Source: Gemmatimonadota bacterium
GTDB lineage: Bacteria > Latescibacterota > UBA2968
Reading direction: 5' to 3'
DNA length: 25,988 nt
NCBI GenBank assembly: GCA_002714465.1
Contig: PAXL01000016.1
Coordinates: 70,355-96,342 of the forward strand
A model generated the notes under the pieces. The model searched no databases. It was given only the letters and a program-made list of their open reading frames with translations, and was not told the origin of the DNA. Of the stretch, positions 5,057 through 25,988 are shown in pieces. Each line of letters opens with the position of its first letter. Position 1 is the stretch's first letter. The position numbers and the translations under genes were made by a program.

Positions 5057-6631
5057 CTACTTACCTTCCATCACGGCTACCGGGAGTATCATCTCCTCAA
5101 GCGAGACCCCGCCGTGCTGGAAGCTGTCAGCATACTTCTGCTCATACTCGTTGAACTTCGTGGGATACACGAAGTAGTAGTCTTCCTTCGCAAACATAAA
5201 GTTCGTCCCCGATCCAACAGTTGGGAGCCCGAAATGATCCGGATCTTTCAGATGCACCGAATTCCTAGCGTCGCTTCGAAGGCTCTTGCCGAACTTGTAT
5301 CGAAGATTCGTTGAGGTGTCCCGGTTACCGTAAGCGACGGTCGCATGCGAGCTGAGCACACAACCGTGATCCGTCGTCAGAACGACCACCGAGTCTGTAG
5401 CAGCCAGCTTGCGCAGCATCTCGAACAACGAGGAGTGTGAGAACCAAGATCTAGCCAGCGATCGGAAAGCCGACTCGTCGGGCGCCATCTCCTTCAGAAT
5501 TTCGGACTCTGAACGCCCGTGCGTCAGCATGTCGAGGAAGTTGTAGACAACTGACATCAGAGGGAAGGCCCTGTAAGAATGGACCTTCTTCACCATGTGG
5601 TTACCCTCAGCGATGTCGAGAACCTTCACATATCGCGTCTCCATACGGAGCTTTGGGTCGATCTCCGCAAGTTGCCGATCCATCAGCTGGTGTTCGTGCC
5701 GATTGCGGCTTCCTTCGTCGTCTCTCGTGCCCTTCCACTCGTCCGGATAGAGCTTAGCCACATCGCACGGGAACAGCCCGCTGAAGATCGCATTGCGCGA
5801 GTAGGGCGTCGCCGTCGGCAGGATGGAGTAGTGATACTCCATCTGGATGTTGAAGTGATCCGCGAGCAGAGGTTGGATCGCCATCCAGTGATCGAGCCGC
5901 ATACAATCCACGACGATAAAGAACACCTGGCGACCGTCCAGAAGCGGTGGTGTGACGAACTCAGAAACGATATCGACCGAGAGCAACGGCGAATCTTCCT
6001 CGTCCAGAATCCATCTCGCATAGTGCCTTTCTACAAACTTCCCGAACTCTTGGTTGCACGATCGTCTCAGGTCCCTGTGCATCTGGAGCAGACCAGGGTC
6101 GTGGAACAGGTCCAGCTGGATATCCCATTCCGAACACCGAACGTGCAAATCAATCCAGTCCTGCCACGATGAGGCCTGCGAATTCTGATCTCTCAGCCGG
6201 TTCGCAGCGGCCACGTAGTCCCTACCCATCCGGTCCTTCTGAATCTGCCGGGCGTCCAGCAGCTTCTTGCACGCCATCAGGATCTGACTCGGGTTGACCG
6301 GCTTAGTCAGGTAGTCATCAATCCGATGACCCAGAGCCTGCTCCATCACCCGCTCTTCCTCATTCTTCGTGATCATGATAACCGGGATGTGCGGATTGAA
6401 ATCCTTGATCACCTGCAGGGTCTTCAGTCCGTCTTTGCCCGGCATCATCTCATCCAGCAGTACCACATACGGTGCCTGACGTTTCACGGCCGCGATCGCG
6501 TCATCACCGTTGGTCACCGGATCGACATCGTAGCCCCGGTCCTTCAGAAAGATGATGTGTGGACGCAGCAGCTCAATCTCATCGTCCGCCCACAGAATCT
6601 GCTTCTGATCAGTTTCTGTAACTGTCGCCAT
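5057..6631 (-). CDS. porX: PorX-type response regulator with C-terminal PglZ phosphatase domain
   Basis: This 524-residue protein has two parts. Residues 10-125 are a CheY-like receiver with acidic D16-D17, phosphoacceptor D60 (VVLLDEMMPG) and K110 (DYLTKP). Residues about 235-524 are a PglZ/alkaline-phosphatase-superfamily domain with D242 (VVDCMRLDHW), T275 in PTATPYSRNAIFSG, D421-H422 (TTDHG) and H506 (FQHGG), the expected metal and catalytic ligands. This matches PorX, known in Bacteroidota as a regulator of type IX secretion, whose PglZ domain hydrolyses phosphodiester or oligonucleotide substrates. ATG at 6631 is chosen because AGGAAGG lies 8 nt upstream and homology begins just after; the frame stays open to 6853 without homology. 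The histidine kinase gene lies 98 nt upstream, a likely cognate partner. A T9SS role here is not shown. Confidence 0.9.
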   Translation of the reverse strand: MATVTETDQKQILWADDEIELLRPHIIFLKDRGYDVDPVTNGDDAIAAVKRQAPYVVLLDEMMPGKDGLKTLQVIKDFNPHIPVIMITKNEEERVMEQALGHRIDDYLTKPVNPSQILMACKKLLDARQIQKDRMGRDYVAAANRLRDQNSQASSWQDWIDLHVRCSEWDIQLDLFHDPGLLQMHRDLRRSCNQEFGKFVERHYARWILDEEDSPLLSVDIVSEFVTPPLLDGRQVFFIVVDCMRLDHWMAIQPLLADHFNIQMEYHYSILPTATPYSRNAIFSGLFPCDVAKLYPDEWKGTRDDEGSRNRHEHQLMDRQLAEIDPKLRMETRYVKVLDIAEGNHMVKKVHSYRAFPLMSVVYNFLDMLTHGRSESEILKEMAPDESAFRSLARSWFSHSSLFEMLRKLAATDSVVVLTTDHGCVLSSHATVAYGNRDTSTNLRYKFGKSLRSDARNSVHLKDPDHFGLPTVGSGTNFMFAKEDYYFVYPTKFNEYEQKYADSFQHGGVSLEEMILPVAVMEGK

Positions 6632-6729
6632 ATCATTGACCTTCCTCTTCCACTGAGGATCGCTTGAACGTCCCCTGGAACCACTTACGTTCTTCTGAAG
6701 CGGTCCACTAGGAACGCCCTTGCTCTTAT

Positions 6730-8040
6730 CTATCTTATCGGCAGCGAGACCTGAAAAGTAGTGCCCACATCGGGCACGCTCGAAAGAACCTCGATCTTGC
6801 CTTTGTGATAATCTTCCACGATCCGCTTCACAAACGATAGCCCGAGTCCCCACCCCCGCTTCTTCGTACTGTAGCCTGGCAGAAAAACCTGCTTCACAGC
6901 GTTCGGTAAGATCCCCTTCCCGTTATCCTCGAAGGTGACGTCGATCCACTCTCCGGCTTCCCGGATCTTCGTCGAGACACGAATTCGTCCGGATGTTCGG
7001 CCTTCGAGCGCATCGGCCGCATTCTTGAGCAAATTCTCGAAAGCCCACCCAAGCAGCTCTCGGTTCATCGGCACCGAAGGCATCGCTTCGGATTCGTAGT
7101 CTAGCGAAACATCGCTAGGCAGCCGATTCCTCAGGTAGGTCGTCGTGTCTCCGATCACCTCGTTAAGACTGCCGATCCGGAGTTCAGGCGTTGAGCCGAT
7201 CTGGCTGAACCGGGACGCTATCTTCGTAAGCCGACTCGTGTCGTTCTCCATCTCCCGCACGATCTGTGTCAAACGCTCTTCTAGCTCGTCCGAATTCGAT
7301 TCCCTTACACGCTCTATCTCACCCTTGAGCAGTTCGGTCCATCCCGATAGCGAAGAAAGAGGTGTCCCCAGCTGATGCGCGGTCTCTCGTGCCAGGCCGA
7401 CCCAGATCGAACGCTGCTCACTGTTTTTGATGTGCCGGAACCCGCCATATCCGACCCCCACAAAGAGTCCCGTCACCAGAAGCGCCACCACGGGCAGCCA
7501 AGACAACCTATCGAGCAGGACCGAATCTCCATAGTGAAGCACAAGATCTCCGATATAGGGCATCTCCATTGGAAGAGGCGGATTCCCAAGATCGAGCCTT
7601 CGAACCACCTCCGTGACGGACTGAATCGTCTCAGGTGTCCGTTCTTCAGGCGAAAACCCGATGTTCTTCCAAACCTGCGGGCTACCATCTCCGTCCGTGA
7701 TCACAACGGGGAAGTCGCTTTGCTGGATCGTCCGAAAGATGATCTGGATGTCGGAGTCAGACTCAGCAACGACGACCGTATCGAGCATGGCAAGTTTATA
7801 CGTGAAGGCATAGAGCTCGATCATGTGCCGGGCCATCTGCCTGGCAGGCCTAACGACGAAGATCTGAGTATAGATCATGAACGCTAGTATCAGGATAGAG
7901 GCTGTCAGGAAGAGGTATGCGCCAAACCGTTGGCTGTTCGACACCACCACCTGCCGGATGGCGCTCCAGGTCCTCGACCAACGTGAGTCCGCGGTGGGCT
8001 CGGGTGGTGCCGCGCGGCTGATGCTTTCAGTAAATACCAT
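6730..8040 (-). CDS. Membrane sensor histidine kinase, likely partner of PorX
   Basis: This is a 436-residue two-pass inner-membrane kinase. TM1 is about 41-60 and TM2 about 181-200, flanking a roughly 115-residue periplasmic sensor region. The cytoplasmic part carries the H-box ETAHQLGTPLSSLSGW with H222, an N-box with N336, N340 and D343, the G1 box DNGKGI (from 372), and the G2 box GWGLGL (396-401). There is no HAMP domain of normal length. The ETAHQLGTPLSSL form of the H-box resembles kinases found in Bacteroidota, including PorY-type kinases, and porX follows directly, so phosphotransfer to PorX D60 is a reasonable inference. ATG at 8040 has a poor Shine-Dalgarno. The signal sensed is unknown. 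Confidence 0.9.
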   Translation of the reverse strand: MVFTESISRAAPPEPTADSRWSRTWSAIRQVVVSNSQRFGAYLFLTASILILAFMIYTQIFVVRPARQMARHMIELYAFTYKLAMLDTVVVAESDSDIQIIFRTIQQSDFPVVITDGDGSPQVWKNIGFSPEERTPETIQSVTEVVRRLDLGNPPLPMEMPYIGDLVLHYGDSVLLDRLSWLPVVALLVTGLFVGVGYGGFRHIKNSEQRSIWVGLARETAHQLGTPLSSLSGWTELLKGEIERVRESNSDELEERLTQIVREMENDTSRLTKIASRFSQIGSTPELRIGSLNEVIGDTTTYLRNRLPSDVSLDYESEAMPSVPMNRELLGWAFENLLKNAADALEGRTSGRIRVSTKIREAGEWIDVTFEDNGKGILPNAVKQVFLPGYSTKKRGWGLGLSFVKRIVEDYHKGKIEVLSSVPDVGTTFQVSLPIR

Positions 8041-16529: not shown

Positions 16530-16606
16530 GGGCCCATAGCTCAGCTGGTTAGAGCATCCGACTCATAATCGGCAGGTCGTAGGTTCGAGTCCTACTGGGC
16601 CCACCA
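16530..16606 (+). tRNA. tRNA with CAT anticodon, probably tRNA-Ile2
   Basis: This is a 77-nt cloverleaf with encoded CCA. The acceptor GGGCCCA pairs with TGGGCCC. The D arm is GCTC/GAGC, the anticodon loop is CTCATAA, and the T arm is GTAGG-TTCGAGT-CCTAC. The top pair of the anticodon stem (T27/C43) is a mismatch. CAT could mean Met, but the loop starts with C (elongator Met loops usually start TTCAT), and the acceptor has C4-G69 and C5-G68, pairs associated with TilS recognition. I therefore read it as Ile2, whose C34 becomes lysidine to decode AUA. In E. coli an Ile2 gene (ileX) likewise lies beside a primase-associated housekeeping gene, rpoD. Confidence 0.93.
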
Positions 16607-22592: not shown

Positions 22593-22634
22593 AAGTACTC
22601 CGCGGCTCGTTTCGGCAGAAATTAGCTGGCCAAA

Positions 22635-22663
22635 AAAGTACGAGCGGCCTGACGTAATGTCAA
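22635..22663 (-). promoter_or_regulatory. Sigma70-like promoter of sucA
   Basis: On the minus strand a perfect TTGACA (22663-22658), a 17-nt spacer and TACTTT (22640-22635) sit about 43 nt upstream of the sucA ATG. The -35 is consensus; the -10 is weak. Confidence 0.55.
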
Positions 22664-22690
22664 GGTTATCAATGAAATAAGACGATTCCT

Positions 22691-22702
22691 AGACTATAGT
22701 CT
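22691..22702. repeat. 12-bp palindrome between the sucA and ilv promoters
   Basis: AGACTATAGTCT is perfectly palindromic. It lies 28 bp upstream of the sucA -35 and 49 bp upstream of the ilv leader -35, which would suit a shared operator. No regulator is identified. Confidence 0.4.
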
Positions 22703-22751
22703 CAGAGGTGCTCACGGCCCCGCAACGCCTGAGTTTACAAGACCTTTTTTG

Positions 22752-22780
22752 TTGACACCCATCAGTCCATTAGATATTTT
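22752..22780 (+). promoter_or_regulatory. Sigma70-like promoter of the ilv leader and ilvN-ilvC-leuA
   Basis: TTGACA (22752-22757), a 17-nt spacer and TATTTT (22775-22780) are followed by an AT-rich stretch. Transcription would start near 22787, about 50 nt before the leader ORF and about 310 nt before ilvN. Confidence 0.65.
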
Positions 22781-22835
22781 ACTTAATGTTAGAAAGAATC
22801 TAAACCTCTGTTGATACATAAGTAGAGTTGAAACA

Positions 22836-23000
22836 ATGCGCGATTTCTTGAAAAAGTCGATCGATTCTTTCCGGAATCTCAGCCTCGCTCCCGCGTCGGC
22901 ACAGAAATCCGCACGCGCGATTCTTCCTGTTTCAGTCATACTGAGCGCACCCGTAGTACTCGCCTCGCTCATTATTTCAAGCCTTCTAGCCCTACTCTAG
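22836..23000 (+). CDS. 54-codon leader ORF rich in Ile/Leu/Val, upstream of ilvN
   Basis: The ORF runs from ATG 22836 to TAG 22998-23000. The first 28 residues are basic and polar (MRDFLKKSIDSFRNLS...). The last 26 codons (from ATT at 22920) contain 16 Ile, Leu or Val codons, for example VILSAPVVLASLIISSLLALL. The ORF starts about 50 nt after a good promoter, its stop coincides with the start of a strong stem, and ilvN, ilvC and leuA follow. These features match attenuation leader peptides of ilv operons, which sense charged Ile, Leu and Val tRNAs. It is longer than the usual 15-35 codons, and its Shine-Dalgarno is weak. The alternative is a real small single-helix membrane protein, since the C-terminal run is long enough to span a membrane. 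No homolog is recognised. Confidence 0.6.
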   Translation: MRDFLKKSIDSFRNLSLAPASAQKSARAILPVSVILSAPVVLASLIISSLLALL

Positions 23001-23073
23001 GCTCAATTCCGACGGCCCCACACTTTCAGTCGCAGTGAATTGAGCCTCTGGACAACCCAAAGGTCGCTTTTTT
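22999..23073 (+). terminator. Putative attenuator (competing hairpins) before ilvN
   Basis: The antiterminator candidate is an 11-bp perfect stem: AGGCTCAATTC (22999-23009) with GAATTGAGCCT (23037-23047), extendable by CGAC/GTCG. The terminator candidate is GCCTCTGG (23044-23051) with CCAAAGGT (23057-23064), one mismatch and one G-U, followed by TCGC and T6 (23068-23073). The two share bases 23044-23047 and so exclude each other. A ribosome finishing at the leader TAG (22998-23000) would cover the 5' arm of the first stem and let the terminator form; a ribosome stalled earlier on Ile/Leu/Val codons would leave it free. A segment in the leader ORF (GGAAT 22873-22877, AGCCT 22881-22885) is also complementary to 22999-23010. 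The structures are read by eye; no folding energies were computed. Confidence 0.55.
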
Positions 23074-23099
23074 GATGTACGCCTGCTAAGGAACGAACC

Positions 23100-23609
23100 A
23101 TGTTGAAACGACATACCATTTCCGCACTTGTCGAGAACCACTTCGGTGTACTTTGCCGTATAGCCGGTCTGTTCTCGAGCCGGGGCTTCAACATCGACAG
23201 CCTCAGTGTCGGAGAGACCGAAGATCCCGAGATCTCCCGGATGACAATCGTGGTCAAGGGAGACGATCGTGTGCTGGAGCAGGTCGTCAAGCAGCTGAAC
23301 CGGCTGATCGACGTGATCAAGGTCATCGACATCACACACGGAACATTTATTGAGCGGGAGCTTGCGCTCATCAAGGTAAAGACGGACACCTTAACGCGTT
23401 CGGAGGTGATCCAGATAACGGAAGTCTTCAGGGCAAACATCGTCGATGTCAGCACGCATTCGATGACGATTGAGGCGACCGGAAAAGTCGACAAGATCAA
23501 CGCTATGATCACGATGCTGTCTCAATACGGAATCACGGAAATGGCGAGGACGGGCAATGTGGCCCTCCTCCGCGACTCACAAGCTAAAGCAGACACCGAA
23601 CAGCGCTAA
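23100..23609 (+). CDS. ilvN: Acetolactate synthase small (regulatory) subunit
   Basis: This is the regulatory subunit that activates acetolactate synthase and gives it valine feedback control. The 169 residues comprise an N-terminal ACT domain (about 1-75: HTISALVENHFGVLCRIAGLFSSRGFNIDSL in part) and a C-terminal ACT-like domain (about 80-160). ATG at 23100 has AAGGA 7 nt upstream. The catalytic subunit gene (ilvB) is normally directly upstream, but here the preceding 500 nt hold only the leader region and the divergent sucA promoter, so ilvB must be elsewhere. ilvC follows after 12 nt. Confidence 0.95.
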   Translation: MLKRHTISALVENHFGVLCRIAGLFSSRGFNIDSLSVGETEDPEISRMTIVVKGDDRVLEQVVKQLNRLIDVIKVIDITHGTFIERELALIKVKTDTLTRSEVIQITEVFRANIVDVSTHSMTIEATGKVDKINAMITMLSQYGITEMARTGNVALLRDSQAKADTEQR

Positions 23610-23621
23610 GGGAGGGACACG

Positions 23622-24617
23622 ATGCAGATGTATTACGACAAGGACGCCGATCTCGGGCTGCTCAGCGACAAAACGGTCGCTGTAATCGGATACGGGAGCC
23701 AAGGACACGCCCACGCGCTCAACCTTCACGACAGCGGTGTCAAGGTTGTCGTCGGTCTCCGCGAAGGCAGCGCCTCCCGCAAAGAGGCGGCCGACGAGGG
23801 GCTCGAAGTCACGTCGGTCGAAGATGCCGCCGCGCAAGGCGACATCATCATGATGCTCGTCCCTGACGAGCATCAGCGCGCCGTGTTCAACGAGCAGATT
23901 GAACCGGGCCTAAACACCGGTAACGCTCTCGCCTTCGCTCACGGTTTCAACATCCACTATGGTCAGGTAGTGCCAGCCGCCGATGTGGACGTGTTCATGA
24001 TCGCACCGAAGGGCCCGGGGCACCTTGTTCGACGTGTGTTCTCACAGGGCGGTGGCGTCCCCTGTCTGATCGCGGTCCATCAGGACGCGACAGGTCAGGC
24101 AAAAGAGATCGGTCTCGCCTACGGGAAGGGCGTGGGAGGCGCACGCGCCGGAATCATCGAAACAACCTTCCGCGAAGAGACGGAGACCGACCTCTTCGGC
24201 GAGCAGTCGGTCCTCTGTGGCGGCATAACCGAGCTGATTCGCGCCGGGTTCGACACGCTTGTCGAAGCGGGATACCAGCCCGAGATCGCCTATTTCGAGT
24301 GCCTGCACGAGGTCAAGCTAATCGTCGACCTCATATACGAAGGTGGAATCGCAAACATGCGATCCTCCATCTCGGATACTGCCGAGTATGGCGATCTGAC
24401 CCGCGGGAAGCGGATCATCACGGACGAGACCCGCGCGGAGATGAAACGAATCTTGGGAGACATCCAGTCCGGCCAGTTCCCGCGCGAATGGCTAGTCGAG
24501 AACCAGGTGGGTCGCCCGCTCTACAACGCACGCAAGCGGCAGGATAGCGAACACCTGATCGAGGAAGTCGGCGGCAAGCTGCGAGGCATGATGTCCTGGC
24601 TCGACGGGAACCAGTAA
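23622..24617 (+). CDS. ilvC: Ketol-acid reductoisomerase, class I
   Basis: IlvC isomerises and reduces acetolactate and acetohydroxybutyrate in valine and isoleucine synthesis. The 331-residue length is the short class I form. The Rossmann motif [13 protein letters not shown] starts at 23; R47, S50 and S52 in the following loop suit NADPH. H107 (AHGFN) and the Mg ligands D190, E194, E226 and E230 ([13 protein letters not shown]) are all present. ATG at 23622 has GGGAGGG upstream. Confidence 0.97.
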
Positions 24618-24649: not shown

Positions 24650-24784
24650 GTGGATCTTGACCTTGGAGACCTTGAGCTTCAAGCCCAAAACATCCTACAC
24701 TTGGAACTGAATGAGCAGATGGCAGACCGTGCCGGATGGATCCATCTGCGTAACCTCGAATCCGGCGGGCAAGGAGTACTGTGA
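24650..24784 (+). CDS. Small ORF (44 codons) wedged between ilvC and leuA
   Basis: A GTG-initiated frame at 24650 has a strong Shine-Dalgarno-like AAAGGGGGTGA (24633-24643) at about 7 nt, and runs without a stop to TGA 24782-24784. That stop overlaps the leuA ATG (TGATG). It would encode an acidic, leucine-rich peptide (DLDLGDLELQ at the start, WIHLRNLESGG near the end) with no membrane segment or known motif. The ribosome site and stop-start overlap argue for real translation and coupling to leuA; the lack of a recognisable family argues for caution. A competing ATG at 24643 gives only five codons. Confidence 0.5.
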   Translation: MDLDLGDLELQAQNILHLELNEQMADRAGWIHLRNLESGGQGVL

Positions 24785-25988
24785 TGTCAGAATCCGACGT
24801 AGATCGCGTATTCATATTCGACACCACATTGAGGGACGCAGAACAGACACCCGGATGCTCCCTCACACCTCGAGAGAAAATGGAAGTCGCGCAGCAGTTG
24901 GCGCGCCTGAATGTCGACATCATTGAGGCCGGGTTCCCGGTCTCCTCGAATGAAGACTTCGACGCTGTACGACGTATCGCCATGGAAGTCGAAGGTCCCC
25001 GAATCTGCGGGCTCGCACGTGCGGTCAACCTGGACATAGACCGTGCGGGCGAAGCCTTGAAGGATGCCCCTCGGACTCGTCTCCACACGTTCATCGGGAC
25101 CTCACCCCAGCACATCGCCATGCTGCGAAAGGCCAAGGGGAACGACGACGTCTTGAAGATGGCTGAGGCTGCGGTGGAGCGTGCTCGCAGCCATTGTGAA
25201 GACGTCGAGTTCTCCCCCATGGACGCAGCTCGTACCGAGCGTCAATTCTTGTATGACGTCGTCGAAGCCACGATCGCTGCTGGTGCCGGCACGATCAACA
25301 TCCCGGATACTGTCGGCTACGCAATTCCGGAGGAATTCGGGAAGCTGATCGCAGATCTATTCGCAAACGTCCCGAACATCCAGGATGCAGTAATCAGTGT
25401 CCACTGCCACGATGATCTGGGGATGGCCGTTACCAACACTTTGTCCGCCATCAAGTATGGGGCCCGTCAGGCCGAGTGTACGATCAACGGACTTGGCGAA
25501 CGCGCCGGGAACGCGTCGCTGGAAGAGGTCGTCATGGCAATCAAAACGCGTGGCGACTACTTCGGCGTCCAGACTCGTATCGTCCCAACCGAAATCGTCC
25601 ATACCAGTCGCTTAGTCTCAAGGCTCATGAACGTCGCCGTTCCGCCGAACAAGGCGATCGTCGGCGCGAACGCCTTTGCCCACAGCTCGGGCATCCATCA
25701 GGACGGTGTACTCAAGAACCGTGACACCTTCGAGATCATGGCCCCGGAAGACGTCGGACTGGAAAAGACAAAGATCGTCCTGACTGCACGATCGGGTCGC
25801 CACGCCCTGAAGCACCGGCTCGAAATCCTGGGTTACAACCTGTCCGACGAGGACCTGAACACGGCCTACGACCGGTTCATTGCCGTCGCCGACAAGAAGA
25901 AGGAGGTCTTCGACGAAGACCTGGTCGCAATCGTAAGTGATGAACTGACGGATATTCCCGAGAAATACAAGCTGGACTATCTACACAC
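24784..25988 (+). CDS. leuA: 2-isopropylmalate synthase LeuA (3' end beyond window)
   Basis: LeuA condenses acetyl-CoA with 2-ketoisovalerate, the first step of leucine synthesis. From ATG 24784 (AAGGAG 7 nt upstream) 401 codons are visible without a stop. The HMGL-like TIM barrel shows DTTLRDAEQTPGCSL (13-27) with catalytic R17-D18, metal ligands D13, H207 and H209 (SVHCHDDLG) and N243 (GERAGNAS), and then the linker signature GANAFAHSSGIHQDG (294-308). The C-terminal leucine-binding regulatory domain would lie past the right edge. The related activities of homocitrate or citramalate synthase are less likely, given the ilvN-ilvC context. Confidence 0.95.
   Translation, partial: MSESDVDRVFIFDTTLRDAEQTPGCSLTPREKMEVAQQLARLNVDIIEAGFPVSSNEDFDAVRRIAMEVEGPRICGLARAVNLDIDRAGEALKDAPRTRLHTFIGTSPQHIAMLRKAKGNDDVLKMAEAAVERARSHCEDVEFSPMDAARTERQFLYDVVEATIAAGAGTINIPDTVGYAIPEEFGKLIADLFANVPNIQDAVISVHCHDDLGMAVTNTLSAIKYGARQAECTINGLGERAGNASLEEVVMAIKTRGDYFGVQTRIVPTEIVHTSRLVSRLMNVAVPPNKAIVGANAFAHSSGIHQDGVLKNRDTFEIMAPEDVGLEKTKIVLTARSGRHALKHRLEILGYNLSDEDLNTAYDRFIAVADKKKEVFDEDLVAIVSDELTDIPEKYKLDYLH

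Follow-up and report, generated by a model that had tools for sequence, protein, structure and literature searches.

A putative leucine- and isoleucine-sensing leader-peptide attenuator before branched-chain amino acid genes in Latescibacterota, kept mostly without a U-tract

What controls the branched-chain amino acid genes near the 3' end of the window, as we call the whole 25,988-nucleotide stretch of DNA analyzed here? On its plus strand, which also carries all parts of the leader described below, ilvN (ORF 23100-23609, a match to family TIGR00119) is followed by ilvC (23622-24617) and leuA (24781-25988, extending beyond the window). An earlier note had proposed that a ribosome-mediated attenuator with an unusually long leader ORF precedes this ilvN-ilvC-leuA cluster. 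The promoter it described was found at 22752-22780, where TTGACA (22752-22757) and TATTTT (22775-22780) are separated by a 17-nt spacer and give 10/12 matches; a promoter scan counted 3 promoter-like sites in 22593-23200, compared to a mean of 0.5 in shuffled sequences. The leader ORF, from the ATG at 22836 to the TAG at 22998-23000, has the 54 codons and the 16 Ile, Leu or Val codons among its final 26 that had been claimed, compared to 23% of such codons in 11 genes of the window. The ilvN ribosome site was also as described, with AAGGAA at 23088-23093 and the ATG at 23100, so that site and gene together span 23088-23609. Elsewhere in the window, on the minus strand at 5057-8040, Pfam matches identified a PglZ-domain response regulator next to a histidine kinase.

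Folding of the leader identified two stems that compete for the same bases. Segment 2 (AGGCTCAATTC, 22999-23009), which overlaps the stop codon, forms a perfect 11-bp stem with segment 3 (GAATTGAGCCT, 23037-23047), and the fold of 22998-23050 reached -21.3 kcal/mol (z -4.6), a value equaled by 0/200 shuffles. The two segments are separated by a C-rich, G-poor stretch (23010-23036). Through its GCCT (23044-23047), segment 3 can instead pair with segment 4 in hairpin 3:4 (GCCTcTGGacaacCCAaAGGT, 23044-23064), which contains a C.A mismatch. A T6 run (23068-23073), exceptional among the relatives examined, is separated from this terminator-like hairpin by a 3-nt CGC, and a TRTRY motif (TGTAC, 23076-23080) lies 11 nt past hairpin 3:4. 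Thus, the positions of the proposed terminator-like hairpin and T6, and the bases shared with the stem, held up, but the hairpin is weak: 23040-23075 folded at -7.4 kcal/mol (z -0.35), 57/200 shuffles did equally well, and a terminator scan found none. The whole leader (22787-23110) folded modestly better than shuffles (z -1.5, 7/100). A further segment absent from the earlier note, segment 1 (AGCCT, 22980-22984), lies inside the leader ORF and could pair with segment 2, although in the window this pairing is weak and no better than in synonymous randomizations of the ORF (0.41 were as good).

Relatives of the locus were then compared. Eighteen close ilvN loci were 76-92% identical to the window ilvN; 12 are labeled Latescibacteria or Latescibacterota, 5 Gemmatimonadetes or Gemmatimonadota and 1 'bacterium', and the nearest relatives of the window are Latescibacterota. 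The phylum group containing the genome of one close locus, L008, comprises 64 genomes, with an ilvN match in 53, of which 20 were at 77-92%. The element was found upstream of ilvN in 21 relatives and also in a second lineage of the phylum, deeply diverged from the first, where it precedes ilvC in 23 genomes. With the window this gives 45 elements: 22 in the ilvN group (the window, L001-L018, L097, L099 and L100) and 23 in the ilvC group. The 22 ilvN-lineage regions have a common layout, in which the leader ORF is Leu-rich towards its end and has its stop beside AGGCTC, followed by GAGCCT and then its downstream partner. As the segments in these regions were located by GAGCCT or GGGCCT, their presence is partly by construction, and a covariance-model search served as the independent test; it failed for L007 and its genome, G005. 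TTGACA was present in the matching upstream stretch of 20/22 of these regions and missing from L006 and L015. Ten ilvN loci of other lineages (L101-L110) had no leader before ilvN, and by eye an apparent ilvB end lies closely upstream.

Searching with R1, a covariance model of the 2:3 region, revealed matches that lie not near ilvN but upstream of ilvC; the ilvN of the genomes concerned shares 42-47% identity with that of the window. A second model (R2), built from the ilvN and ilvC groups, detected the element at E <= 0.003 in 19/20 ilvN-lineage genomes and in 23/25 genomes G041-G065, the misses being G005, G046 and G059; in all 23 ilvC-lineage loci ilvC starts 75-278 nt past segment 3. No genome searched with R2 had a second match below E 0.1. 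Across 17 further genomes (G010-G026) the R2 matches numbered four and were weak (E 0.0096-0.45), and the two strongest have no ilv gene behind them; G027 and G031 had no match, and in nine genomes of other lineages R2 matched twice, weakly (E 0.03 and 0.07). R1 matches at L142 and L145-L148 were rejected since they lie away from ilv genes and most fall inside open frames, R2 matches L159 and L160 were rejected as members, and minus-strand R1 matches overlying the same hairpins were attributed to the symmetry of the stem. Searches of Rfam 15 at the gathering score returned no family for the window element or for the 18 loci searched, and relaxing the search to E up to 5 gave one chance-level match (E 3.9); the sole Rfam match within the window is a tRNA gene at 16530-16603. 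L007 is divergent, with an R1 E value of 0.074, no R2 match, a rearranged 3:4 and a T5 further on.

The genes behind the element all belong to the Leu/Ile/Val pathway in the three genomes compared: the window has ilvN, ilvC and leuA, G051 has ilvC-leuA-leuC-leuD, and G006 has ilvN-leuA-leuC-leuD, with no ilvC between ilvN and leuA (L196:8762-13851). In the ilvN lineage ilvB is far from ilvN (G006, G008); in G051 and G052 ilvB adjoins ilvN, and of these ilv genes ilvC alone lies 3' of the element.

Both stems showed compensatory change across relatives, strongly for 2:3 and more weakly for 3:4. For 2:3 we used an alignment of 30 elements (A4; without L007, near-identical rows and later-found members), which was fitted to the 2:3 structure of the model, so that its pair counts lean towards that structure. 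In A4, 86.6% of cells were paired, compared to 29-53% when the arms were slid, and 24 cells had changes on both sides compared to 8.4 in shuffles (0/500); neither double-changed pairs (4) nor pair types (7) were more numerous than in shuffles. In one group the stem reads AGGCTC/GAGCCT, and some members of the other have AGGCTTCG/CGAAGCCT. For 3:4, 22 distinct hairpins from 29 rows were counted (A5, which excludes L007, the later-found L150-L158 and L006, whose arm is degenerate): 97.7% of cells were paired, and two were double-changed compared to 0.2 in shuffles (2/500). The hairpin follows the pattern GCCT-x-TG..CA-x-AGGY, its internal position being C.A, C.C, C.U, U.C or, in one group, a G.U pair. 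Eight later members carry GCCG in segment 3, with a compensating CGGC present in 5 and missing in 3. Furthermore, in 12 sequences own partners paired better than cross partners for 2:3 (200/20000) and 3:4 (924/20000), and no better for segments 1 and 2 (5227/20000). Against synonymous randomizations of the same 12 sequences, 0/1000 reached the mean segment 1 pairing; taken singly, no sequence except L003 and L015 gave a value under 0.05, and the pairing was unremarkable in the window, L002 and L008.

We also examined the leader peptides, using 20 representatives hand-chosen from the 45 elements, 10 per lineage. Nineteen had an ATG leader, and the final 20 codons of these comprised 39% Leu, 14% Ile and 4% Val, compared to 9%, 7% and 5% in the remainder; enrichment was weak in L007 (7/20), and the Val codons of the window leader are atypical among the representatives. 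Of the starvation sensing proposed for Ile, Leu and Val, the data therefore support the first two, enriched near the stop, but not Val, and the leader appears to sense Leu and Ile rather than Val. The long ORF is typical of the lineage, as had been suggested: when each was read from the ATG that gives the longest ORF of at most 75 codons, leaders were 31-71 codons long in 43/45, and L132 and L136 had no ATG leader by this rule. The peptides themselves are not conserved between the lineages, which share only Leu/Ile richness and the position of the stop, and so the ORF does not look like a conserved protein. The earlier note had also offered a small protein doubling as sensor, and one could go further and take the ORF for a gene of a small membrane protein with incidental hairpins. 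Its hydrophobic end and one near-identical 54-residue protein, the only database relative found, fit such a gene, but there was no NCBIfam match, and we rejected a leader protein family; variation among close relatives fell at codon positions in the numbers 6, 3 and 3, with no third-position excess and mostly within Ile, Leu and Val; and the compensatory RNA changes in 2:3 and 3:4 also speak against it. We consider a membrane protein gene very improbable and the double role disfavored.

The compensatory changes in 2:3 and 3:4, with the kept Leu/Ile-rich ORF end and stop position, support a ribosome-mediated transcription attenuator before ilvN-ilvC-leuA, one that very probably senses how much charged leucyl- and isoleucyl-tRNA is available. 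Transcription would start a few bases past 22780, and the 54-codon leader would be translated close behind RNA polymerase. With ample Leu and Ile, a ribosome at the stop codon would mask segment 2, so that hairpin 3:4 forms and the genes are off, presumably through a premature stop of transcription. When Leu and Ile are short, the ribosome would stall in the Leu-rich end, leaving segment 2 free to form the 2:3 stem in place of 3:4, and the genes would be on.

Predicted folds follow this scheme in most members. In 43/43 leaders segment 2 begins 1-14 nt past the first base of the stop codon, where a ribosome at the stop could mask it, and the replete state was modeled by folding from 13 nt into segment 2. 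With segment 2 masked, the mean probability of 3:4 was 0.76 in the ilvN group and 0.73 in the ilvC group; with it free, that of 2:3 was 0.76 and 0.88, and that of 3:4 fell to 0.20 and 0.08, respectively. Masking thus moves the predicted fold from 2:3 to 3:4 between mutually exclusive stems, as proposed, but not everywhere: 3:4 was still preferred with segment 2 free in 6/45 (L008, L015, L017, L097, L100 and L139), and its probability stayed <0.25 even with segment 2 masked in 9/45 (L003-L006, L133, L140, L143, L153 and L162). The same folds bear on whether the switch might instead act on translation, by opening or closing the ribosome site of ilvN or ilvC. Such a site lies downstream within the same leader, and the accessible part of PMC1262725 gives a precedent in the T-box of ileS in Actinobacteria. 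However, from the replete to the starved fold the mean unpaired probability of the site went from 0.51 to 0.42 in the ilvN group and from 0.46 to 0.45 in the ilvC group (for L010 and L015 the start was taken at the match edge rather than at a verified ATG). This lack of a rise argues against translational control, which we regard as improbable and rejected.

How the off state would end transcription is a separate matter. A stable hairpin immediately followed by a T-run, the mark of a U-tract terminator, was absent from 43/45 elements: it occurred in 2/22 of the ilvN group (the window and L002) and 0/23 of the ilvC group, compared to 18/19 ilvB upstream regions of the ilvN lineage. The detector covered <=90 nt for ilvN and ilvC and 330 nt per ilvB region, and the wider span cannot explain the contrast because the false rate was 1/50 and 1/66 in 80-nt divergent controls. 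Intrinsic termination as a general off-switch is thus not supported; in L002 and the window a U-tract terminator, a weak one in the latter, may be the off device. The ilvB count covers 19/22 genomes, with L213 (cut), L233 (partial) and L234 (a different copy) dropped. By eye, within 330 nt upstream, 12/19 ilvB regions (L210-L212 and L218-L226) have a short ORF with a Val run before the hairpin, for example MTHQITTSHIAITTAVVGRVVVLVPM; in L209, L227 and L229-L231 the hairpin before ilvB may end the preceding gene. Like the element, the ilvB regions place a leader-like ORF and a hairpin ahead of a gene of this pathway; they differ in the canonical T-run and the Val run; the large and small subunits of acetolactate synthase seem to be under different leaders, Val for one and Leu/Ile for the other.

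For the other members a pause hairpin or Rho are the candidates. In an ungapped tail alignment of the representatives, with the hairpin end taken as the first GG[CT] 14-20 nt after GCC, or else 22 (L007), position +14 past 3:4 was T in 18/20 (9/10 per lineage; 0/5000 shuffles, which ignore kinship). A TRTRY motif stood at +12 to +16, a fixed 11 nt past the hairpin, in 13/20 (5/10 in the ilvN and 8/10 in the ilvC lineage), a count reached by 0/5000 shuffles, with 32/5000 reaching the ilvN-lineage value alone, again ignoring kinship; clustering of YG past 3:4 was weaker (18/2000). Furthermore, C exceeded G in the stretch between segments 2 and 3 in 20/20 representatives (0.32 vs 0.11), and a Rho RNA-binding domain was found in 5/6 genomes searched, the exception being G001. 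These features would allow a model that refines the attenuator, in which 3:4 pauses RNA polymerase and Rho loading on the C-rich stretch, open with 3:4 formed and closed in a loop with 2:3 formed, ends transcription in most members. However, the G-poor loop may merely keep the loop open, and the stretch is just ~20-45 nt, which would be short for a Rho site. The conserved T is also ~14 nt from the hairpin, or ~10 nt with a GAC/GTC-like lower stem, compared to the 11-12 nt given for pause hairpins in the accessible part of PMC12288461. We consider this model rather unlikely as it stands.

Alternatively, 3:4 could itself release RNA polymerase with little or no U-run. That 3:4 is kept without one fits this, as does a survey of convergent gene ends, where a hairpin with a T-run was found at 6/60 in G051 and 11/80 in G006 (stretches L163-L202) compared to 18/42 in 150 kb of E. 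coli K-12; given this sparseness, these bacteria may end many transcripts in another way. However, hairpins without T were hardly enriched at the same ends (30/60 vs 25.8 in shuffles for G051, 37/80 vs 28.2 for G006), and T-runs are present in the ilvB regions of this lineage. A non-canonical intrinsic terminator is thus a possibility that we hold only tentatively.

The attenuator resembles known systems to different degrees. Proteobacterial leuL, ilvL and ivbL are Leu and Ile/Val leader-peptide attenuators, whose leaders in E. coli are roughly 30 codons long. They share with the element a leader with control codons, mutually exclusive hairpins, a stop beside segment 2 and the same pathway; the element differs in its longer leader in most members, the lack of a U-tract in 43/45, TRTRY and the mismatch in 3:4. 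The Corynebacterium ilvBNC attenuator likewise combines a leader peptide with three competing hairpins upstream of an ilv operon, but, in the accessible part of PMC11857589, its leader has 15 residues and its Val codons were shown to be important, whereas the leaders here are Leu/Ile-rich and 31-71 codons long. For Actinobacteria, the accessible part of PMC1262725 describes cys leader peptides with no obvious terminators and no conserved hairpins, for which Rho was proposed, and a LEU element with a Leu-codon leader before leuA and a pseudoknot involving the ribosome site. These are alike in an amino-acid-rich leader without a clear terminator and in the Leu-codon leader at leuA; the element here differs in conserving both switch hairpins. 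In the part of the literature covered, we found no paper pairing latescibacter with attenuator, and those pairing it with leader peptide were, as far as their accessible parts go, on secondary metabolites.

Altogether, these data would add a candidate phylum to the range of leader-peptide attenuation, through an RNA element that matches no Rfam family. The switch is kept across two deeply diverged lineages without the U-run sought by terminator-based screens, and the authors of one such screen state, in the accessible part of PMC2965389, that Rho-dependent cases are missed; the ilvB regions of the same genomes provide an internal control for attenuation without a classical terminator. As a bolder and still speculative reading, the element could be a leader-peptide attenuator as old as the phylum whose off state is not a U-tract, the mismatched 3:4 and the fixed-distance TRTRY forming a programmed pause, a Rho-linked or an otherwise new stop device. 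Within the same cells it would stand beside a canonical U-tract attenuator of ilvB, apparently Val-sensing, so that the two subunits of acetolactate synthase would answer to different amino acids.
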